Below are positions 1 through 51,061 of a stretch of 51,066 bases of DNA, piece by piece. The stretch covers positions 395 to 51,460 of the forward strand of contig PLRS01000105.1 of NCBI GenBank assembly GCA_003164035.1, given 5' to 3'. The notes under the pieces were generated by a model, which was not told where the DNA came from, did not search any database, and saw nothing but the letters and a program-made list of their open reading frames with translations. The number at the start of each line of letters is the position of its first letter. Positions within the stretch are counted from its first letter, which is position 1. The position numbers and the translations under genes were made by a program. This stretch comes from Bryobacterales bacterium (GTDB lineage Bacteria > Acidobacteriota > Terriglobia > Bryobacterales > Bryobacteraceae).

Positions 1-112
1 ATTGGAGCGGGTACACAACAGGGTACACAACGAGTGCTGAATACCCCTCATTTCGCGCTCACAGCCGTGCTGGGCCACCTGTAGAATGAATTACATACAC
101 ATCGAGCTTTTC

Positions 113-158
113 CCTCCGGAGCAAAAGGTCGGTGGTTCGAATCCACTCGGGCGTACCA
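113..158 (+). repeat. Left attachment repeat: 3' half of a tRNA gene (tRNA-Arg CCG-like)
   Basis: These 46 bases are identical to 2932-2977. They read as the 3' half of a tRNA: anticodon loop CTCCGGA (anticodon CCG), a variable loop, a T-arm with GGTTCGAATCC, an acceptor strand CGGGCGT, discriminator A and an encoded CCA. I find no matching 5' acceptor strand or D-arm in the preceding 112 bases, so this is a fragment rather than a working tRNA. Tyrosine integrases commonly use tRNA 3' ends as attachment sites and duplicate them on integration. With the integrase remnant at 726-1004 this marks an element boundary. The intact tRNA probably lies upstream of the window, and this copy may be a junction between tandem elements. 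Confidence 0.85.
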
Positions 159-183
159 ATAAGTTCTAATAAATCAATAAGAT

Positions 184-220
184 GGGCACCAGAAACGGAA
201 ACGGGTCTGGTGCCCTTTTT
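184..220 (+). terminator. Rho-independent terminator after the left att copy
   Basis: A perfect 10-bp stem, GGGCACCAGA at 184-193 pairing with TCTGGTGCCC at 206-215, has a 12-nt loop and is followed directly by TTTTT. This is a textbook intrinsic terminator on the plus strand. It lies 26 nt after the tRNA-like repeat and would stop transcription of a tRNA or element transcript entering from the left, insulating the cargo genes. Confidence 0.85.
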
Positions 221-223
221 GCT

Positions 224-249
224 TGTATGCCTAAAACTATGACCACCCC
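224..249 (+). repeat. Inner direct repeat, left copy (26 nt, 6-nt variable core)
   Basis: TGTATGCC, then six variable bases (TAAAAC), then TATGACCACCCC. The same 8+6+12 arrangement recurs at 2792-2817 with CAATAG in the middle. The two copies sit just inside the two tRNA-derived repeats, in the same orientation. They could be recombinase or accessory-protein binding sites, or the relic of an earlier insertion. The function is inferred only. Confidence 0.6.
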
Positions 250-348
250 AAACCTTGAAGCGTGGTCTGGTATGACGCGACCGGGCGGAACACTCATGCT
301 AGTTTTGAGGAGAACGATTGTTGTTCAAAGGAAGCAGGAGGTGCCGCA

Positions 349-636
349 TTGAGTCTGACCAAACGGTTGATGGAAGAATGGCAACACAAGGTGGCGGTCG
401 GAAAGGGGATAGCCATTGATGCGGGCGTGCTCGCCGTCTGCGAGATACACGAAATCGTATACGACGGCGGTGTGGAGATCGAGCGTGCCTACATGTTGGG
501 AAACGCTAGGTTCACGGCGGGGAAACTGAACGAGGTTTTTGCTGATCGCCGCGACCTGACTGATGCGATCAAGAAGGCGTACGAAGAAAACTGCGGCGAT
601 GGGTGCTGGATATGCCAGAAAAACGCTGCTTCGTAG
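349..636 (+). CDS. Small uncharacterised element protein (95 aa, TTG start)
   Basis: I chose the TTG at 349 because a perfect AGGAGG at 336-341 precedes it by 7 nt. The longer reading from 262 has no ribosome-binding site and an unconvincing N-terminus. The product begins MSLTKRLMEEWQ and is mixed alpha/beta by eye, with a Cys-containing tail (CGDGCWIC) whose spacing could hold a metal or form disulfides. I do not recognise the family. It is the first gene inside the tRNA-bounded element, in the position often held by small excisionase-like or regulatory proteins, but no helix-turn-helix is evident. Real gene likely; function unknown. Confidence 0.6.
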   Translation: MSLTKRLMEEWQHKVAVGKGIAIDAGVLAVCEIHEIVYDGGVEIERAYMLGNARFTAGKLNEVFADRRDLTDAIKKAYEENCGDGCWICQKNAAS

Positions 637-725
637 ATCGTACGATATGCCATCGATTGAGGGGATGCGGAGCAAGGCGCATCCGGCCCAGTCTGGCGGG
701 CCGGGCCGGATGCCATCAGGAGTGC

Positions 726-1004
726 TTAGGAAGGCTTGGAAGCTGCGGGCGTAGGTGCTGGGGCATCGGTCTGCGGAACCACATCTGCGGGCACTCTGGC
801 GCGTTCCATAGCGGCGCGCCCGGTGTCCATGTTCGGGTGAACGTAGCGGCGCGTGGTGCCGAAGTCGCTGTGGCCCGCAAAGTATGCCAGGGTGTACGGG
901 TCCATGTGTGAAGACCAGCGCGTCAGGCAAGTATGCCGAAACGTGTAGAAGGGCAATTGTCCGATACCCGCAAGGTCACACGCGCTATGGTGCCGCTTAC
1001 CCAA
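726..1004 (-). pseudogene. Tyrosine recombinase (integrase), C-terminal remnant
   Basis: The 92-residue fragment matches the C-terminal catalytic part of phage-type tyrosine integrases. It has a box II-like YTFRHTCLTRW, then AGHSDFGTTRRYVHPN, which carries the conserved GH and the nucleophilic Tyr. The core-binding domain and the first catalytic Arg and Lys are absent. Upstream the frame runs into the start of the next, opposite-strand gene at 1035. Intact integrases of this type are about 350-400 aa, so about three quarters is missing. It is a decayed integrase and supports the tRNA repeats as attachment sites. The only in-frame start is a weak TTG, so it is probably not expressed. Confidence 0.85.
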
Positions 1005-1034
1005 CGGGGGTGAGACGTGGTGGGAGGAACTACT

Positions 1035-2150
1035 ATGGCATTTACGAAGGCCCTGTACTATCCACGCATCGAAGTTCCCGATGAGGGATGGTTGAAGACG
1101 GCGATGCTTTATTGGGATGAGATCAAGACCATTGTCCCGGCGTCTATGCCAGAGCCTTATACCGCTGCCACATCGCGCGCACTATTTGACGCGGGCGTGC
1201 TCTCTCCGCTACACGTTCACCCTCACCTGGAAAGCGTCGAACGACTCGCAGCGAAGGTCCTGGACTACCTGGGGTCACCGGAAGCAGATGGGGTGCTGGT
1301 TGAAGGTGGCCTGCGGCAATCGGACCTCATCCACCCTGAGAAACTTCCTGAGTTGCGGGAACTCGTGCGCATGCACCCTGAGAAATTCCCACACGTGATT
1401 GAACATCAGTTGGAACGCCTGATCCACGGAAGGGAAGGCGAATGGGTCCGGGTAAATCGACCATTCGCGCGTTTCTACATGACGATGTTGGCCACGGAAT
1501 TGGCGGAAAGTCATGGCATCGCCATGGTGACGGATATGCCTGCCTGTGATCGGCTTGCCGTCAGCGTCCGGCTTGATGGAAAGCTCGGAATTCCGCACCT
1601 TCGCATTGGAGATCCTTACGGGCATCGGTACGGGCACGACTGGTACCACGAACACAGGATGCCCGGAACGCTCGCCCCGGCCCTGCTCGCTGACCTGACC
1701 CTTCAACGGGTGGCGATAAGCCCAGACACATCTGTTGAGGCGATTCTACGATTTCGTGAAGACCACAAGGGCGAACTGGGAAGGTTCCGAACCAAGATGG
1801 CAGACCTCACCAAATTGGTTAAGGATGACATTCCCCTTGCTGCCCTACAGCAAAGCGTTTCCGACATCTACTCCAATGAAGTCAATCCTGCTATTGACGA
1901 AGTGAAGGACTGCCTAAGCGCGTCCAAGATCAAATGGGCACTTGAAAGCTTTCTGAAAACTTCGATGCTGTCCGTTCCCAGTGGAAGCGCTCTGGCTGCA
2001 CTGGGACTTTCGATTCCCCATGCTGTACTGGCGGGCGCTGGAGTCTCCCTCATAGTTTCAGCCGTGCTGTTCAATCTTCAGAAGGAAGAGGAAATGCGCA
2101 AGAATCCATTTTCATACTTGCTGTCGGCTGAGTCTCACTTTCATGCGTGA
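1035..2150 (+). CDS. Uncharacterised cargo protein (DUF6236-like), 371 aa
   Basis: The ATG at 1035 has GGGAGG at 1022-1027, 7 nt upstream. I preferred it to the GTG at 1017, which would put the ribosome site inside the gene. The N-terminus (ALYYPRIEVPDEGWLKTAMLYWD) resembles proteins I remember grouped as DUF6236, which open with a YYP..W...LYWD pattern; this could not be checked here. The middle is soluble and helix-rich. Near the C-terminus a hydrophobic stretch of about 30 residues, around 315-345, looks like a membrane anchor, followed by a charged tail. It is the main cargo gene of the element. Function unknown. Confidence 0.8.
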   Translation: MAFTKALYYPRIEVPDEGWLKTAMLYWDEIKTIVPASMPEPYTAATSRALFDAGVLSPLHVHPHLESVERLAAKVLDYLGSPEADGVLVEGGLRQSDLIHPEKLPELRELVRMHPEKFPHVIEHQLERLIHGREGEWVRVNRPFARFYMTMLATELAESHGIAMVTDMPACDRLAVSVRLDGKLGIPHLRIGDPYGHRYGHDWYHEHRMPGTLAPALLADLTLQRVAISPDTSVEAILRFREDHKGELGRFRTKMADLTKLVKDDIPLAALQQSVSDIYSNEVNPAIDEVKDCLSASKIKWALESFLKTSMLSVPSGSALAALGLSIPHAVLAGAGVSLIVSAVLFNLQKEEEMRKNPFSYLLSAESHFHA

Positions 2151-2284
2151 CAGACTGGGTAGCCGGTACGATTGCCGGGGGGCCTGCCCAGCTTTCAGAA
2201 CAATAGGCGATGCTCGAATTGTTGAAGGCCCCGGAGCAGGCATTCGCGGCGCGGTGGTCCGCAGAGTAGAGAAGGGAGCGCAGA

Positions 2285-2746
2285 GTGGAAACTAAAGACA
2301 TCGTGAGCCTAGCAGTCAGCGGCCTTGCGGCATGCGTGGCCGCGTATGCTGCCGTGTATACAAGGCACGCCGTCCACAGTCAGAAGACTGCCGAGAAGTG
2401 GTCCGCAAATCATGGCTTTTTGGTGCGCGTCTACGAAATGCTTGTGACGAATCCAGAGCTTCTCCACTTGCACGGGCTTAGTCCCGAGGATCTGGCGCAA
2501 GACGGCGTGTCCGTTTCTGAGTTCACATACATCCATCTCCACATGGATGCTGGCAGCGCCTTCTATCACATCGGCGGGGCCAAGAACGCAAAGCTGACCG
2601 AAGTGCGAAAGGCATTCCTCGACAACCCAAAAGTCAGAACTGTCTGGAAGAAGCATCTTAGCGGAAGATTCTTCAGCCCCTCGCACCCGTATTCGATTGC
2701 CGTAGACGCCTATATCGCAGAGATTGAAGCCAGGATACAGGCTTAG
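2285..2746 (+). CDS. Uncharacterised protein with N-terminal membrane anchor, 153 aa
   Basis: It starts at GTG 2285 with AGGGAG a few bases upstream. Residues about 7-26 form one hydrophobic segment (IVSLAVSGLAACVAAYAAVY), followed by a soluble, mostly helical domain rich in His, Tyr and acidic residues. This single-anchor plus cytosolic helical layout is common in small unannotated accessory proteins (I recall similar DUF4760/DUF6082-type entries, unverified). It lies 134 nt downstream of the preceding cargo gene on the same strand, so the two may be co-transcribed. Function unknown. Confidence 0.7.
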   Translation: METKDIVSLAVSGLAACVAAYAAVYTRHAVHSQKTAEKWSANHGFLVRVYEMLVTNPELLHLHGLSPEDLAQDGVSVSEFTYIHLHMDAGSAFYHIGGAKNAKLTEVRKAFLDNPKVRTVWKKHLSGRFFSPSHPYSIAVDAYIAEIEARIQA

Positions 2747-2791
2747 GGGCCACAAATGGCAACCGGGAATACGTGGGGCGCAGCCTGGACG

Positions 2792-2817
2792 TGTATGCCC
2801 AATAGTATGACCACCCC
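2792..2817 (+). repeat. Inner direct repeat, right copy
   Basis: TGTATGCC, six variable bases (CAATAG), TATGACCACCCC. This is the partner of the copy at 224-249. Twenty of 26 positions are fixed, with all differences confined to the central six bases. It lies 114 nt before the right tRNA-derived repeat. Confidence 0.6.
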
Positions 2818-2931
2818 CTGCATAAACCACATATCACAACCTGCTACGGATGGCCTGCAAGCCGTTGAAAAAAATAGCTGGTGACACTTTGTGATAGGAA
2901 GTGTAAGTTATTGATTCTTCGTGCGGTCCTG

Positions 2932-2977
2932 CCTCCGGAGCAAAAGGTCGGTGGTTCGAATCCACTCGGGCGTACCA
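2932..2977 (+). repeat. Right attachment repeat: 3' half of a tRNA gene
   Basis: Identical over 46 bases to 113-158 and ends in the encoded CCA. The bases just upstream (CCTG) would not complete an anticodon stem with GCAAA and no 5' tRNA half is visible, so this too is a fragment. Sequence after 2977 looks like ordinary chromosome leading to glcD, so this is read as the distal attachment site. The 256 bases from here to glcD hold no gene I can support. Confidence 0.85.
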
Positions 2978-3233: not shown

Positions 3234-4667
3234 ATGCTGGGCGCAGAACCGCGGCGGCGCATTTTGGAACTGGTGGGGCGGCAGGGGTTTCTCGACCGTC
3301 CCGAGGACTTGTCGCTATATGAATACGACGCCGGGGTGGATAAGCACCGACCGGACGTGGTGGTATTTCCGCGCTCGACGGCGGAAGTCTCAGGGATCGT
3401 CAAGATCGCCAATCAATATCACATGCCGGTGGTGGGCCGCGGCGCGGGCACGGGGCTTTCGGGCGGCGCCATTCCCGCGGAGGGCGGCGTCGTGGTCGCC
3501 TTTGCGCGGATGAACCGGATTCTCGAAATCGACCTCGAAAACGAACGGGCGACGGTGCAGCCGGGAGTGGTGAACCTGGATGTGACCCTGGCGGTTGAGG
3601 GGCGCGGCTTTTTCTATGCGCCCGATCCGTCCAGCCAGCGGGCCTGCACGATCGGCGGCAACGTGGCGGAGAACGCCGGCGGGCCGCACACGCTGGCCTA
3701 CGGCGTCACCACCAACCACGTACTCGGGCTGGAGCTGGTGCTGGCGGATGGAACGGTGGTCGAGACCGGCGGCAAGGAGCTGGACTTGCCCGGCCTGGAT
3801 CTGACAGGCCTGTTGACGGGCTCGGAGGGGACGATGGTGCTGGTGACCAAAGTCGTCGTCCGCCTGATCCGCAAGCCCGAAGTGGTGAAAACGCTCCTCG
3901 CCATTTACGACAACAACGAAGACGCCGGACGGACGGTGACGGAAATCACGGCGCTCGGGATTACTCCGGTGGCGGTGGAGATGCTCGACGGGGTGATGCT
4001 GCGCATGGTGGAAGAAGCCACCCACGCCGGCTATCCGATGGATGCCGCGGCGGTGTTGCTGATCGAGCTCGAAGGCATCCGGGAAGCGGTGGACGAGCAG
4101 ACGGAACAGATCCGCGAGGTTTGCGGCAGCTCCGGGGCGCGGGAAGTGCGGGTGGCACGGAGCGCGGAGGAACGCGAGCTGCTGTGGAAGGGACGCAAGA
4201 ACGCCTTCGGAGCGGTGGGCCGCGTGAGCCCCACTTACTATGTGCACGATGGAGTGGTGCCGCGCACGCAGATCCCTTCGACGCTGCATGTGGTTAACGA
4301 AGTGGCCGCGCGCTACGGGCTGACGATTTCGAATATCTTCCATGCCGGCGACGGCAATCTGCATCCCATCATTTTGTTCGACGGGCGCGTTCCGGGCGAG
4401 TTGGAAAAGGCGCGCGCGGCCGGGGTGGAGATTCTGTCGCACTGCATCGCGGTGGGCGGCACGATCACCGGAGAGCACGGCGTCGGGTTGGAGAAGAAAG
4501 AGCTGATGCCGCGGTTGTTTTCGAGCGAAACGCTGGCCACGATGGCGCGGCTCAAGCTGCTTTTCGATCCCAACAACCGCATGAACCCGGGCAAAATGTT
4601 ACCCACGGGGAAAGGCTGCATCGAGATCCGCCAGCCGGCGTTGGTGAAAGGCGCGATGCGGTACTGA
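3234..4667 (+). CDS. glcD: FAD-linked oxidase, glycolate oxidase GlcD-type
   Basis: This 477-aa protein belongs to the vanillyl-alcohol-oxidase-fold flavoproteins that oxidise 2-hydroxy acids such as glycolate or D-lactate. The FAD-binding half shows PVVGRGAGTGLSGG near residues 65-78 and PDPSSQRACTIGGNVAENAGG near 130-150. The C-terminal half shows FHAGDGNLHP near 365 and GEHGVGLEKK near 415, followed by the family's closing FDPNNRMNPGK. Length is normal for GlcD. The glcE and glcF partners do not follow, so it may work alone or with subunits encoded elsewhere. Start ATG is preceded by AAGGGA. Confidence 0.95.
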   Translation: MLGAEPRRRILELVGRQGFLDRPEDLSLYEYDAGVDKHRPDVVVFPRSTAEVSGIVKIANQYHMPVVGRGAGTGLSGGAIPAEGGVVVAFARMNRILEIDLENERATVQPGVVNLDVTLAVEGRGFFYAPDPSSQRACTIGGNVAENAGGPHTLAYGVTTNHVLGLELVLADGTVVETGGKELDLPGLDLTGLLTGSEGTMVLVTKVVVRLIRKPEVVKTLLAIYDNNEDAGRTVTEITALGITPVAVEMLDGVMLRMVEEATHAGYPMDAAAVLLIELEGIREAVDEQTEQIREVCGSSGAREVRVARSAEERELLWKGRKNAFGAVGRVSPTYYVHDGVVPRTQIPSTLHVVNEVAARYGLTISNIFHAGDGNLHPIILFDGRVPGELEKARAAGVEILSHCIAVGGTITGEHGVGLEKKELMPRLFSSETLATMARLKLLFDPNNRMNPGKMLPTGKGCIEIRQPALVKGAMRY

Positions 4668-46923: not shown

Positions 46924-46993
46924 CTCACCCAATATCCCCGCTACGTGTGCGGGCGAGTGAGCGGTCTATTACGTAACTATTTTTGGAGGATTC

Positions 46994-49900
46994 ATGGCTT
47001 ACCTTAGGAGACGTGTGTCCAGCGTCGGAACCCTGGCTTTGGCGACGCTTCTGTTGTGCGGGCCGGCGTGGCCGCAAACCAGTTCCACCGGAAGTGTGTC
47101 GGGCCTCGTCACCGATCAACAGCACGCAGTTGTCGCAGGCGCGGCGATCAAGCTGACAGATCCCTCAACCGGCATCACCTTGTCGACATCGAGCAACGAC
47201 ACCGGCCGCTACATCTTCGCCAACGTTGCACCCGGGAAGTACAACATCAGCATCGCTAAGACCGGATTCTCGACGGAGGACATCAACGCGCAAACCATAG
47301 AGGTCGGCCAGGTGCTGACCATCAACGCGACGCTGCAAGTGGGCGCCACCGCAACCACGGTGGAAGTCGCCGCGCAGACAGGCGCGGATTTGCAGACCGC
47401 GAATTCAACGGTGGGCCAGACCGTCTCCGGGGATTCGATGATCTATCTGCCGGGTTTCAGCCGTGAAGCCGCGCAGCTCGCGATCTATCAGCCGGGCGTT
47501 TCGCCGGAAGGCTCGGTAGCCGGCGCGATGTGGGACCAGAACACCTTCCAGCTCGACGGCGGCAACAACTCCAGCGATATGGACGGCGGCCAGAACGTCT
47601 ATACCGCGAGTTACGGCGGCAACGGGACCAACGGAGGGTCATATAACGCGGGTGTCGGGGCACCTACCGGGACCATGCCGACGCCGGTCGAGAGCATCGA
47701 GGAATTCAAAGTGAACACCAGCGGCATGACGGCGGATTTCAACGGTTCCTCCGGCAGCCAGGTGCAGATGGTGACCAAGCGCGGCACCAATGCGTTCCAC
47801 GGGTCGGCTTATGAATACTACTACGCCACCGACGTGGGCGCGGCCAATACCTGGGACAACAACCACGTGCCTTCGGGCAACCTGGGTTACACGCCCCTGC
47901 CGATCACCCACAACAACCGTTTTGGCGGGGCATTGGGTGGGCAGCTCATCCCCAAGAACCTGCTGGGCGGCAAATGGTATTTCTTCGTGAATTACGAGGG
48001 TTTCCGCTTCCCGCAGTCGGCGCTCGTCGAAAGGACCGTTCCCACGGCGATGCTGAAAGCCGGCGTGGTTCAGATTAACGAGGGCGGGACGTATGTGCCC
48101 TACAACCTGAACCCCTACCCGGTTACCGTGGCAGGAACGACCTATCAGCCGGCGACCTGCCCGGCGGGCGCCTGCGATCCGCGCGGAATCGGATTGAATT
48201 CGCTGGTGTCGAAACTCTGGAACAACTACATGCCGGCGCCGAACTATCCTGCCGGCGGCGACCACTACAACACCCAGGGATATCAGGGCATCGTAGCGCT
48301 CCCCCAAAAGAGCAACAACGAAATCGCCCGCATCGATCACGATTTCAGCGACAAATGGCGGTTCATGAGCAGCTACCGCTATTACCGCTTTATCAACCTC
48401 ACCACCAACCAGTTGGATATCGGCGGCGGGCTGCCGGGCGACAAGCTGGGGACACCCACCGCCCAGGGACCGCGGCCGCAGATTCCCAGCTACTGGGCAG
48501 CGGGGCTGACCACCACCATCAACGCCACCACCACCAACGATTTCCGCTTCAGCTACCTGCGCAACTACTGGGACTGGGGCACGGACGGCGCAATACCGCA
48601 GTTGCCGGGTTCGGGTTTGACGGCGGCTCTGGAAATCGGCGGCGAAACCACCAATGCGCTGATTCCCTACAACGTCAACACCCAGCAGACTCGCCAGCGT
48701 TTCTGGGACGGGCAGGATAAGAGCATCCGCGACGACGTAACCAAGATCAAGGGCAATCACCTGATCAGTTTCGGCGGCATGTACCAGCGCAATTTCGATT
48801 ACCATCAGCGCACCGACAACGGCGGCGGCATTATGTTCCAACCGGTGGACCAGATCGGGCAATCGAGCGGCTATGCATCGGGCATCAGCTTCCCCTCGCA
48901 ATACGTGCCGGCGGGTGTTCCGAGCAGTCAGCTCTCCACTTACGAGAGGTACTACGAGGAAATCATGGGTATCGTGACCCAGCCCCAGGATCTGTATACC
49001 CGCAGCGGCGCCAGCTTGACGCTCAACCCGCCGGGAACGCCGATGTTCGACCAGAGCATCATTCCCTCCTACAACTTCTATTTCACCGACACGTGGAAGA
49101 TGAAGCCAACATTTACGATCAATTACGGCCTGGGCTACGCGCTGGAGATGCCGCCCTACGAGGTGAACGGCAAGCAGATCGTGCTTACCGACACCAGCGG
49201 TCATCCGATCGATCTTACCAGCTACCTTGCCCAGCGCCAATCGGCGGCACTGGCGGGACAGGTGTACAACCCGACGCTGGCGTACGATGGCGTGCGCAAC
49301 CTGACCGGAGCCAGCACCAAGTATCCCTACAACCCCTTCTACGGCGGTATAAGTCCGCATGTGGCGGTGGCCTGGAATCCGAAATTTCAGAATGGCGTTC
49401 TAGGCAAGCTGTTGGGCGACGGCAAGACCGTGATCCGCGGCGGATACAGCCGGGTGATGAGTCGGCTGAACGGCGTCGACCTGGTACTGATTCCACTGCT
49501 GGGCACGGGGTTGGGGCAACCGGTTTCGTGTCTCGGCGCCACCTCCAGCGGCCAGTGCCTGGGCAACGCCGGCGCAACTCCGTCGACGGCATTTCGTATC
49601 GGCACCGATGGCCTGGTGGCGCCGCTGGGGACGCCACCTACTCAGACCCTGGCTCAGCCTTACATACCGGGCTTCAACAACGGGACTGCCGGTTCGGGCA
49701 GCGTGCTGGACCCCAACTTCCGCCCGGCGCGCACCGACAACTTCACCCTGAGCGTCCAGCGTGAAATCAGCTCGAAGGCGATGTTCGAGGTGGGTTACAT
49801 CGGCCGTTTGATCCGCCACGAATGGCAGGAAGTGGACATGGACGCGGTGCCGTACATGACCACCCTGGGCGGCCAGAGCTTCGCCCAGGCGTACTCGAAT

Positions 49901-51061
49901 ACCTACTGGTCGCTGTACAACCAGAGCTTTTCCCCGACTGCCACGGTGGCCGCACAGCCGTTCTTTGAAAATGCCTTCGGCGGCGCCAATTCGGCGTTTT
50001 GCAAAGGCTACGGAAGCTGCACCATGGCGGTATTGAATAATCCCGCGGTGGGCGGCGCGAGCATGGTTCAGAGCACCTCGGTTTACGACCTGTGGGCGGC
50101 GATGAACAGCGCGCCGTCCTGGACCCTGGGACGCACCATGCCGAGTTCGCCGGTGGCCGGCGGCAACGCCCAGCTCTCGGCGGTCTACTACGATACCAGC
50201 ATCGGCTTCGCCAACTACAACGCGGCGTACGCGCAATTGACCCTGCGCGACTGGCACGGCTTTACGGTGCACACCAACTTCACCTGGGGCCGTGCTCTGG
50301 GCACCGGCAACCAGGACCAGGCCACCAGCGAATACACCGTGGTGGATCCCTGGAACATGCATGCGATGTACGGTCCGCAGTACTTCGACTACAAGTTCAA
50401 CCTGAATCTGACCTTGGTGTTTCAACCGCCCTTCTACCGCAACCAGAAAGGCGTAATCGGACATTTGCTGGGTGGTTGGACCATCGCTCCACTCTTCGTC
50501 GCTCACAGCGGAGCGCCGCTCGCGGTCGTCAACGACAACGGCGATTGCGAATCGTTCGGCGAAGCCAACTGCAGTACGGGTTCGACGGAGGACTTCGCGG
50601 TATTTATGAGCAAGTACACGGGTGGCAGTTCGGCGCACTATAACCAGGTGGTATCGGAGAGCGCCACGGCGAACCCCAACGGCGTGGGCATCAACTCCAA
50701 CGCCGATAACGGCGGCCAGAACGTGCAGTTCTTTACCAACCCGATCGCCACCTACGGCCAATTCCGCGATTGCGTCCTGGGATTCGATACCAACTGCGGC
50801 GCAACGGGCACCATTCGCACGTTGCCGTGGTGGAACCTGGATGCCTCGGTTTCGAAGGACATCGGGATTTGGAAGGAAGGGCGGGTAGGAGCGACCTTGA
50901 TCTTCCAGTTCAGCAACCTGCTCAACCACGTGCAGATGGCGCAACCTTACCTCTCTACCGCCGATCCGGCCGATTGGGGCGTGCTGGGAACGTCCAATCC
51001 CAACGGCGGCCAGGCGAACGCGCCGCGAAACATGGAGTTCGGCGTTCGCGTGCATTTCTAG
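46994..51061 (+). CDS. Oar-like TonB-dependent outer-membrane receptor
   Basis: The 1355-aa protein has a signal peptide (MAYLRRRVSSVGTLALATLLLCGPAWP), a carboxypeptidase-regulatory-like domain at about 33-115 (GSVSGLVTDQQHAVVAGAAIKLTD...SNDTGRYIFANVAPGKYNISIAKTGF), a plug region (FKVNTSGMTADFNGSSGSQVQMVTKRGTN near 235-265) and a long beta barrel, ending in Phe (FGVRVHF), the outer-membrane C-terminal signature. This architecture is expanded in Acidobacteria and Bacteroidetes for import of large substrates. No SusD partner follows within the window. Confidence 0.95.
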   Translation: MAYLRRRVSSVGTLALATLLLCGPAWPQTSSTGSVSGLVTDQQHAVVAGAAIKLTDPSTGITLSTSSNDTGRYIFANVAPGKYNISIAKTGFSTEDINAQTIEVGQVLTINATLQVGATATTVEVAAQTGADLQTANSTVGQTVSGDSMIYLPGFSREAAQLAIYQPGVSPEGSVAGAMWDQNTFQLDGGNNSSDMDGGQNVYTASYGGNGTNGGSYNAGVGAPTGTMPTPVESIEEFKVNTSGMTADFNGSSGSQVQMVTKRGTNAFHGSAYEYYYATDVGAANTWDNNHVPSGNLGYTPLPITHNNRFGGALGGQLIPKNLLGGKWYFFVNYEGFRFPQSALVERTVPTAMLKAGVVQINEGGTYVPYNLNPYPVTVAGTTYQPATCPAGACDPRGIGLNSLVSKLWNNYMPAPNYPAGGDHYNTQGYQGIVALPQKSNNEIARIDHDFSDKWRFMSSYRYYRFINLTTNQLDIGGGLPGDKLGTPTAQGPRPQIPSYWAAGLTTTINATTTNDFRFSYLRNYWDWGTDGAIPQLPGSGLTAALEIGGETTNALIPYNVNTQQTRQRFWDGQDKSIRDDVTKIKGNHLISFGGMYQRNFDYHQRTDNGGGIMFQPVDQIGQSSGYASGISFPSQYVPAGVPSSQLSTYERYYEEIMGIVTQPQDLYTRSGASLTLNPPGTPMFDQSIIPSYNFYFTDTWKMKPTFTINYGLGYALEMPPYEVNGKQIVLTDTSGHPIDLTSYLAQRQSAALAGQVYNPTLAYDGVRNLTGASTKYPYNPFYGGISPHVAVAWNPKFQNGVLGKLLGDGKTVIRGGYSRVMSRLNGVDLVLIPLLGTGLGQPVSCLGATSSGQCLGNAGATPSTAFRIGTDGLVAPLGTPPTQTLAQPYIPGFNNGTAGSGSVLDPNFRPARTDNFTLSVQREISSKAMFEVGYIGRLIRHEWQEVDMDAVPYMTTLGGQSFAQAYSNTYWSLYNQSFSPTATVAAQPFFENAFGGANSAFCKGYGSCTMAVLNNPAVGGASMVQSTSVYDLWAAMNSAPSWTLGRTMPSSPVAGGNAQLSAVYYDTSIGFANYNAAYAQLTLRDWHGFTVHTNFTWGRALGTGNQDQATSEYTVVDPWNMHAMYGPQYFDYKFNLNLTLVFQPPFYRNQKGVIGHLLGGWTIAPLFVAHSGAPLAVVNDNGDCESFGEANCSTGSTEDFAVFMSKYTGGSSAHYNQVVSESATANPNGVGINSNADNGGQNVQFFTNPIATYGQFRDCVLGFDTNCGATGTIRTLPWWNLDASVSKDIGIWKEGRVGATLIFQFSNLLNHVQMAQPYLSTADPADWGVLGTSNPNGGQANAPRNMEFGVRVHF

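Follow-up and report, generated by a model that had tools for sequence, protein, structure and literature searches.

The locus and its tRNA-Arg(CCG) repeats

We analysed a 51,066-bp stretch of a Bryobacterales genome (hereafter the window), whose first letter is base 395 of contig C72. We focused on element B, a segment near its left edge (113-2977) bounded by two copies of a tRNA 3' end, and on element A, another element whose end lies directly to the left of element B. Throughout, G000 is the window's own genome, other G numbers are genomes of relatives, and L numbers are loci. A first-pass annotation of this DNA had claimed two identical 46-bp repeats without a 5' tRNA half, and the data agree with it. 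The direct comparison of the two copies within the window resulted in 46 of 46 identical positions, neither copy has a 5' tRNA half, and ARAGORN found no tRNA in the window. The distance from repeat to repeat is 2819 bp.

The same annotation had placed the intact tRNA beyond the window, and it was located there. The 33-bp T-arm/CCA portion of the repeat has three copies (up to 3 mismatches) in the 8.0-Mb assembly of 169 contigs, and the third forms the 3' end of a complete tRNA-Arg(CCG) gene (C91:1-77), the final 46 bases of which equal both window copies. This tRNA is the only copy found in the assembly beyond the window, so the repeat is not spread through the genome without integrases, an outcome named beforehand as one that would speak against a tRNA-targeting element. 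Contig C91 terminates exactly at the CCA of the tRNA, the last base of the 46-bp repeat; such an end is expected if reads branch beyond the tRNA. On the other contig, C72:376-394 is a run of 19 N, and thus the assembly lacks most of what separates the tRNA from the left copy.

Between the repeats, the predicted decayed integrase C-terminus was confirmed as a PF00589 match of 27.4 bits against a cut-off of 27.1. Against a 412-position profile built from six integrases of relatives, the fragment spans positions 296-375 (80 of 412). It retains what we take to be the C-terminal motifs HxxR, GH and Y; the region of the first catalytic arginine is missing, and the integrase should therefore be inactive. 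A profile search of the element resulted in no other recombinase of the same group. The closest integrases to the fragment are those of G022 and G035 (76-77% identical), and viral contigs contained one relative of the G022 integrase. The G035 fragment (L056:2902-3273) and the window fragment start at about the same residue, near position 297 of the G028 integrase and the profile. They belong to two genera and both lie at tRNA-Arg(CCG), which may reflect a shared old truncation or a coincidence.

The three other main open reading frames (ORFs) are all open. Besides the PF20735 match and the weak DUF6236 and DUF6082 matches (Table 1), they gave sub-threshold matches only, and no relaxase or secretion gene was found among their Pfam, NCBIfam and PHROGs matches. 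Their distribution is sporadic: the DUF6236-like protein occurs in 3 of 297 genomes of the phylum, the ea8.5-like protein (E of 0.001 or less) in 2 of 257 genomes of the order, and the DUF6082-like protein in 1 of 257, with the own genome included in each count. Four plasmid records matched the DUF6236-like protein, each below 60% identity. The ea8.5-like protein had no match in phage records, and PADLOC returned no match for the three cargo proteins.

Table 1. Features of the window at and around element B
Position	Strand	Feature	Basis
1..112	+	right end of element A, adjoining the left repeat on its left side	identity to relatives
9..31	+	GGGTACACAAC twice in direct orientation at 12-bp spacing; proposed as an arm-type site for element A	pattern and T-arm distance
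113..158	+	left attachment (att) copy, tRNA-Arg(CCG) 3' end; junction of elements A and B	identity to C91 tRNA
184..215	+	possible terminator: hairpin rich in G+C with T5 behind it, located between att and the proximal arm site	fold z -6.3
226..249	+	putative proximal arm-type motif TATGCCTAAAACTATGACCACCCC	twin-repeat pattern
262..636	+	ORF, 124 aa, Lambda ea8.5-related domain	PF20735, 46.6 bits
726..1004	-	C-terminal piece of a tyrosine integrase whose 3' end points to the left att	PF00589
1017..2150	+	ORF, 377 aa, cargo, DUF6236-like	weak match just below Pfam cut-off
2285..2746	+	ORF, 153 aa, cargo, DUF6082-like	weak match just below Pfam cut-off
2794..2817	+	putative distal arm-type motif TATGCCCAATAGTATGACCACCCC	twin-repeat pattern
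2904..2915	+	TAAGTTATTGAT box, 46 bp before T-arm	seen in distal-end comparison
2932..2977	+	right attachment copy, displaced tRNA-Arg 3' end	identity to left copy
3234..4667	+	FAD-linked oxidase (GlcD-like), first clear chromosomal gene on the right	profile match

Attachment ends of elements B and A

Inside the repeats, element B carries a 26-bp near-repeat, one copy (224-249) lying 65 bp in from the left att and the other (2792-2817) 114 bp in from the right one. Its core is a 24-bp twin repeat with a period of 12 bp, as arm-type sites would have, and we regard both cores as putative arm-type sites. The twin-repeat site at both element ends is new in this analysis. The motif pattern, which was derived from the window itself, matched twice in the window and in none of 100 shuffles. 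The exact scan of the genome collection resulted in four loci, all from Acidobacteriota, and in all four the motif lies between a tRNA 3' end and an integrase-coding sequence pointing to the tRNA. One of these tRNAs is Pro and three are Thr, one of the latter being only a tail by our own reading. No exact match was found in viral contigs. When up to three mismatches were allowed, 75 matches were obtained in 55 of the 257 genomes of the order, whereas the reversed pattern gave 7.

Rather than all 75, we read 42 distinct matches, comprising the exact-scan loci, 30 loci from the mismatch scan and the fetched stretches. Twelve were assigned to a proximal class, with a T-arm ending 77-83 bp upstream, and 15 to a distal class, with a T-arm starting 132-155 bp downstream. 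At random positions, a T-arm was found 75-100 bp upstream in 23 of 5800 cases and 120-165 bp downstream in 32 of 5800. The distances in the window are 78 (proximal) and 132 (distal). Since many copies in other Bryobacterales stand at the same two distances from tRNA 3' ends, both ends of element B appear to be complete attachment ends with putative arm-type sites.

Two further features accompany the motif. The TAAGTTATTGAT box (up to 2 mismatches), counted in the same sequences in which it had been spotted, occurs in 7 of 16 distal ends, compared with 13 of 3200 shuffles, and in 7 of 7 box-bearing ends it stands 46 bp before the T-arm. Its reverse complement presumably fits the IHF consensus. 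Of the 12 proximal ends, nine have a G+C-rich stem within the 60 nt that precede the motif (z from -1.2 to -6.3, the lowest value being that of the window), and the remaining three show none (z from -0.7 to 0.3). The terminator scan, with a loop limit of 8 nt, made no call at the window hairpin, in our reading due to its 12-nt loop. In element B, twin motifs, box and hairpin are all in register. A junction similar to the one described below for the window is visible in G415 (L102:7410-7672), where a solitary tRNA tail is flanked by arm motifs and a distal and a proximal end meet at one att.

The 112 bp left of the left repeat were 93.8% identical to G489 over 112 bp (L123), 88% identical to G566 over 110 bp (L127) and 76-77% identical to G036 and G559. 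In these four other genera, too, the sequence precedes a tRNA-Arg-type 3' end. The GGGTACACAAC twin pattern matched nine times in the 257 genomes, own included, against eight for the control, and is thus unspecific by itself. Five of the nine matches (G000, G036, G559, G566 and G489) precede a tRNA-Arg-type 3' end, with the T-arm exactly 99 bp downstream in the first four. The G489 match has the same layout, its T-arm having been overlooked by the rule, and the other four matches have no T-arm within 250 bp. With a different element's end on its left and the element B motif on its right, the left repeat is, to judge from these flanks, the tandem junction of elements A and B, as the first-pass annotation had suspected. 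We infer that C91 is physically linked to C72, in the order C91-A-B.

That annotation had pointed to a tRNA-Arg(CCG) and another integrase on the left. The tRNA was found on C91, as described; the integrase of element A was not found. In the own assembly, the GGTACACAAC twin site has a single occurrence, which lies in C72. The assembly has 16 PF00589 matches, some near contig ends, and among eight contig-end loci whose ends were inspected, two begin in tRNA tails by our own reading (L132 and L137). Beside the element A ends of relatives, ARAGORN found no tRNA in about 13 kb (G489), about 16 kb (G566) and 33 kb (G036); for the G489 and G566 stretches ORFs were listed and no integrase search was made.

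Two side observations concern this region and its contig-end loci. At L137 (G000:C16:1-2116), the contig opens in a tRNA 3' end, by our own reading, followed by an integrase frame and ten tRNA genes in about 1 kb (Gly x2, Thr x3, Gln x2, Ile, Val and Lys), a phage-like tRNA array. Left of the window, L004:125-375 contains repeated inverted ends, GAAATTCCGAGAAT and ATTCTCGGAATTTC, about 160 bp apart, which resemble those of miniature inverted-repeat transposable elements (MITEs). This stretch adjoins the element A end and is similar in three other genomes (L123, L127 and L050).

Related elements and the origin of element B

Element delimitation was attempted from 20 distal ends. A second att copy was found upstream for 8 of 20, and none was found for the other 12 in the 0.1-15.5 kb available upstream. 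Nine att-bounded elements were complete, own included, with G536 added although the strict rule had missed it (Table 2). The integrase is full-length in one of them and a nearly full-length frame in another, and in the other seven it is broken or absent; most assemblies of the relatives are multi-contig, and some of the broken frames may be sequencing errors. In G446, a third, internal att copy divides the element into units of 1.35 and 1.96 kb with one motif each, which were counted as one element.

Table 2. The nine att-bounded elements, ordered by size (proximal motif scored with our own pattern)
Genome	Size	Integrase	Proximal motif	Cargo
G561	1.98 kb	fragment	not found (up to 6 mismatches)	two tested ORFs, no Pfam match
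G536	2.15 kb	none detected	not found	HTH_37 protein and TIR domain protein
G000 (element B)	2.82 kb	fragment	present (up to 6 mismatches)	see Table 1
G462	2.94 kb	pseudogene in pieces	not found (up to 6 mismatches)	Gp49/HTH_37 toxin-antitoxin pair
G446	3.3 kb	none detected	present	Gp49/HTH_37 toxin-antitoxin pair
G451	4.12 kb	frame broken	present (up to 6 mismatches)	DUF5615 protein
G556	4.40 kb	frame of 348 aa, profile 20-409 of 412	present (up to 6 mismatches)	RelA_SpoT domain
G424	5.39 kb	fragment	present (up to 6 mismatches)	HD, AAA_18 and PNP_UDP proteins
G028	8.41 kb	421 aa, full	present (up to 6 mismatches)	

Other tRNA-Arg-type arrangements were seen in two relatives. Alongside an intact tRNA-Arg(CCG), G030 has three lone tails (L026, L028 and L029), and two or three of the flanks behind them resemble one another (TTTCAATAACTT and the like), possibly another array in a different genus. 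In G037 (L051:3405-5959), a tRNA-Arg(CCG) is separated from a displaced tail by 2.5 kb with an integrase of another lineage; the tail is the G000 version, and the 3' sequence of the tRNA itself is a different one (3 mismatches).

From these results, element B is very probably an integrase-defective cassette at tRNA-Arg(CCG), standing in tandem behind element A and resembling a cis-mobilizable element (CIME). In the mechanism we propose, a tyrosine integrase would have placed element B at the tRNA. Recombination in the tRNA 3' half would have left a 46-bp copy at each end and kept the tRNA whole, as the repeats suggest. With a twin-repeat arm-type site at the group's usual distance at each end, the cis-acting ends look complete. 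Due to the reduction of the integrase to its C-terminal fifth, element B should not move alone. Element A, with different arm sites and the same target, would point to tandem accretion at one tRNA, and element B would have moved, if at all, by the integrase of another element, as a CIME does. Binding at the arm sites is predicted, and movement in trans is possible; the latter is plausible given the intact ends of element B and the antitoxins, 87.5-92.3% identical, shared by similar elements with a broken integrase or none in three genera (G446, G462 and G536).

Several points weigh against this reading. No empty site was found among the compared relatives, all of other genera with no genus-mate among them, and no contig of the assembly joins C91 to C72. 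In the synteny test, stop-to-stop frames of at least 150 codons from window 3001-51066 and C91:1-12000 were compared with 16 intact-tRNA loci, which cover about 1.5 kb or less per side. Only one long frame (46961-51058) matched, at 2 of the 16 loci with 22-30% identity, and a single weak match fails to bridge the two contigs. Fifteen of the 42 motif matches have no T-arm at the expected place under the strict rule, although one of them, L114, does precede a tRNA-Pro copy. The window copies differ from the group consensus by 2 and 1 mismatches, and the origin of the motif pattern and of the box count, given above, counts on the same side. No close intact relative of the integrase fragment was found in the own assembly, and the best other family match is 31% identical, so this assembly offers no candidate helper. 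Finally, the G022 and G035 integrases have, by our own reading, a twin site of different sequence inside their 3' ends; the integrase fragment and the arm sites of element B may therefore come from different lineages.

The strongest alternative is that element B is a dead relic, which arrived with its own integrase, lost it and decays in place, its ends being leftovers that no enzyme moves in trans. We give this a little better than an even chance. As loss after arrival predicts, C-terminal integrase fragments (G424 and G561) and a pseudogene in pieces (G462) adjoin the proximal end, and decay is also favoured by the seven elements whose integrase is broken or undetected, since three of them show no proximal motif. 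The missing helper and the 12 distal ends without a second att, many of which may be remnants, point the same way. On the other hand, element B keeps the motif at the usual distance at both ends, its other three ORFs are open, and the antitoxins are closely similar across elements of which two of three have no detected group integrase. Decay after arrival explains the same facts as movement in trans, and we consider it somewhat more likely.

A broader reading is that tRNA genes of Bryobacterales are home to arrays of cassettes of about 2-5 kb, most of them lacking an integrase, which have a two-part attachment end in common. Several would carry cargo of toxin-antitoxin or defence-like type, and rare relatives that do encode an integrase would spread the cassettes in trans. 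This is a speculative view, about which we are doubtful; if true, the system would be comparable in logic to integrase-less integron arrays.

A false join of 2.8 kb through the 46-bp repeat is very improbable. The end of C91 at the final repeat base and the scaffold gap that ends 112 bp left of the left repeat are what such an artefact would leave, but element B contains no N and both its ends fit the end layout of other genera. Duplication of tRNA-derived sequence with no integrase involved, to which the mere fragment of an integrase might lend itself, can practically be dismissed, since the fragment points to the tRNA-derived end, relatives of the same layout carry longer integrases, and the integrase 3' end faces a tRNA 3' end within the locus in 9 of the 20 integrase loci returned, own included.

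Comparison with known mobile elements

Island finders that start from integrase genes overlook short elements without the enzyme. The end signature described here, a T-arm followed after 77-83 bp by a twin 12-bp repeat, or a twin repeat followed after 132-155 bp by a T-arm, picks out candidates from their ends alone. It opens a test of how many cargo genes, defence-like ones included, travel in this way in Acidobacteriota. No literature on such elements in this phylum was found among the matches listed, and we do not claim that it is absent from print. For Candidatus Solibacter usitatus, 16 candidate islands with tRNA and mobile-element genes have been described (PMC3174227).

Element B shares with tRNA-targeting genomic islands of the Islander type (PMC4383910) a displaced tRNA fragment and an integrase gene near the tRNA end. 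The pair of an intact tRNA and a displaced 3' fragment corresponds to the C91 tRNA-Arg(CCG) and the window copies, whose link is inferred; where such islands have a full-length integrase, element B has a fragment only, and two elements are stacked at its site. Tycheposons (PMC10872708) are likewise cargo elements at tRNA genes with tyrosine recombinases. However, element B measures 2819 bp against the quoted 4-200 kb, and its recombinase is a fragment. The clusters of attC sites lacking integrases (CALIN) and the MITEs described as 'hitchers' (PMC11389934) are enzyme-less units that keep their cis sites and depend on an enzyme in trans. Their enzymes and sites differ from those of element B, and the likeness would be one of analogy.

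The closest likeness is to CIMEs, which are defined together with tandem accretion in PMC5704250. As in the CIMEs of that source, the integration gene of element B is lost and no working integrase is left. The attL and attR sites are kept, with 46 of 46 identical positions and arm-type motifs at both ends, there are no transfer (conjugation) genes among the three other main ORFs, and element B shares its site with another element in a tandem arrangement. CIMEs derive from an integrative and conjugative element (ICE) or an integrative and mobilizable element (IME), whereas no intact parent of element B was found. Element B also differs in being very small and in bearing the Bryobacterales twin arm-type motifs at its ends.

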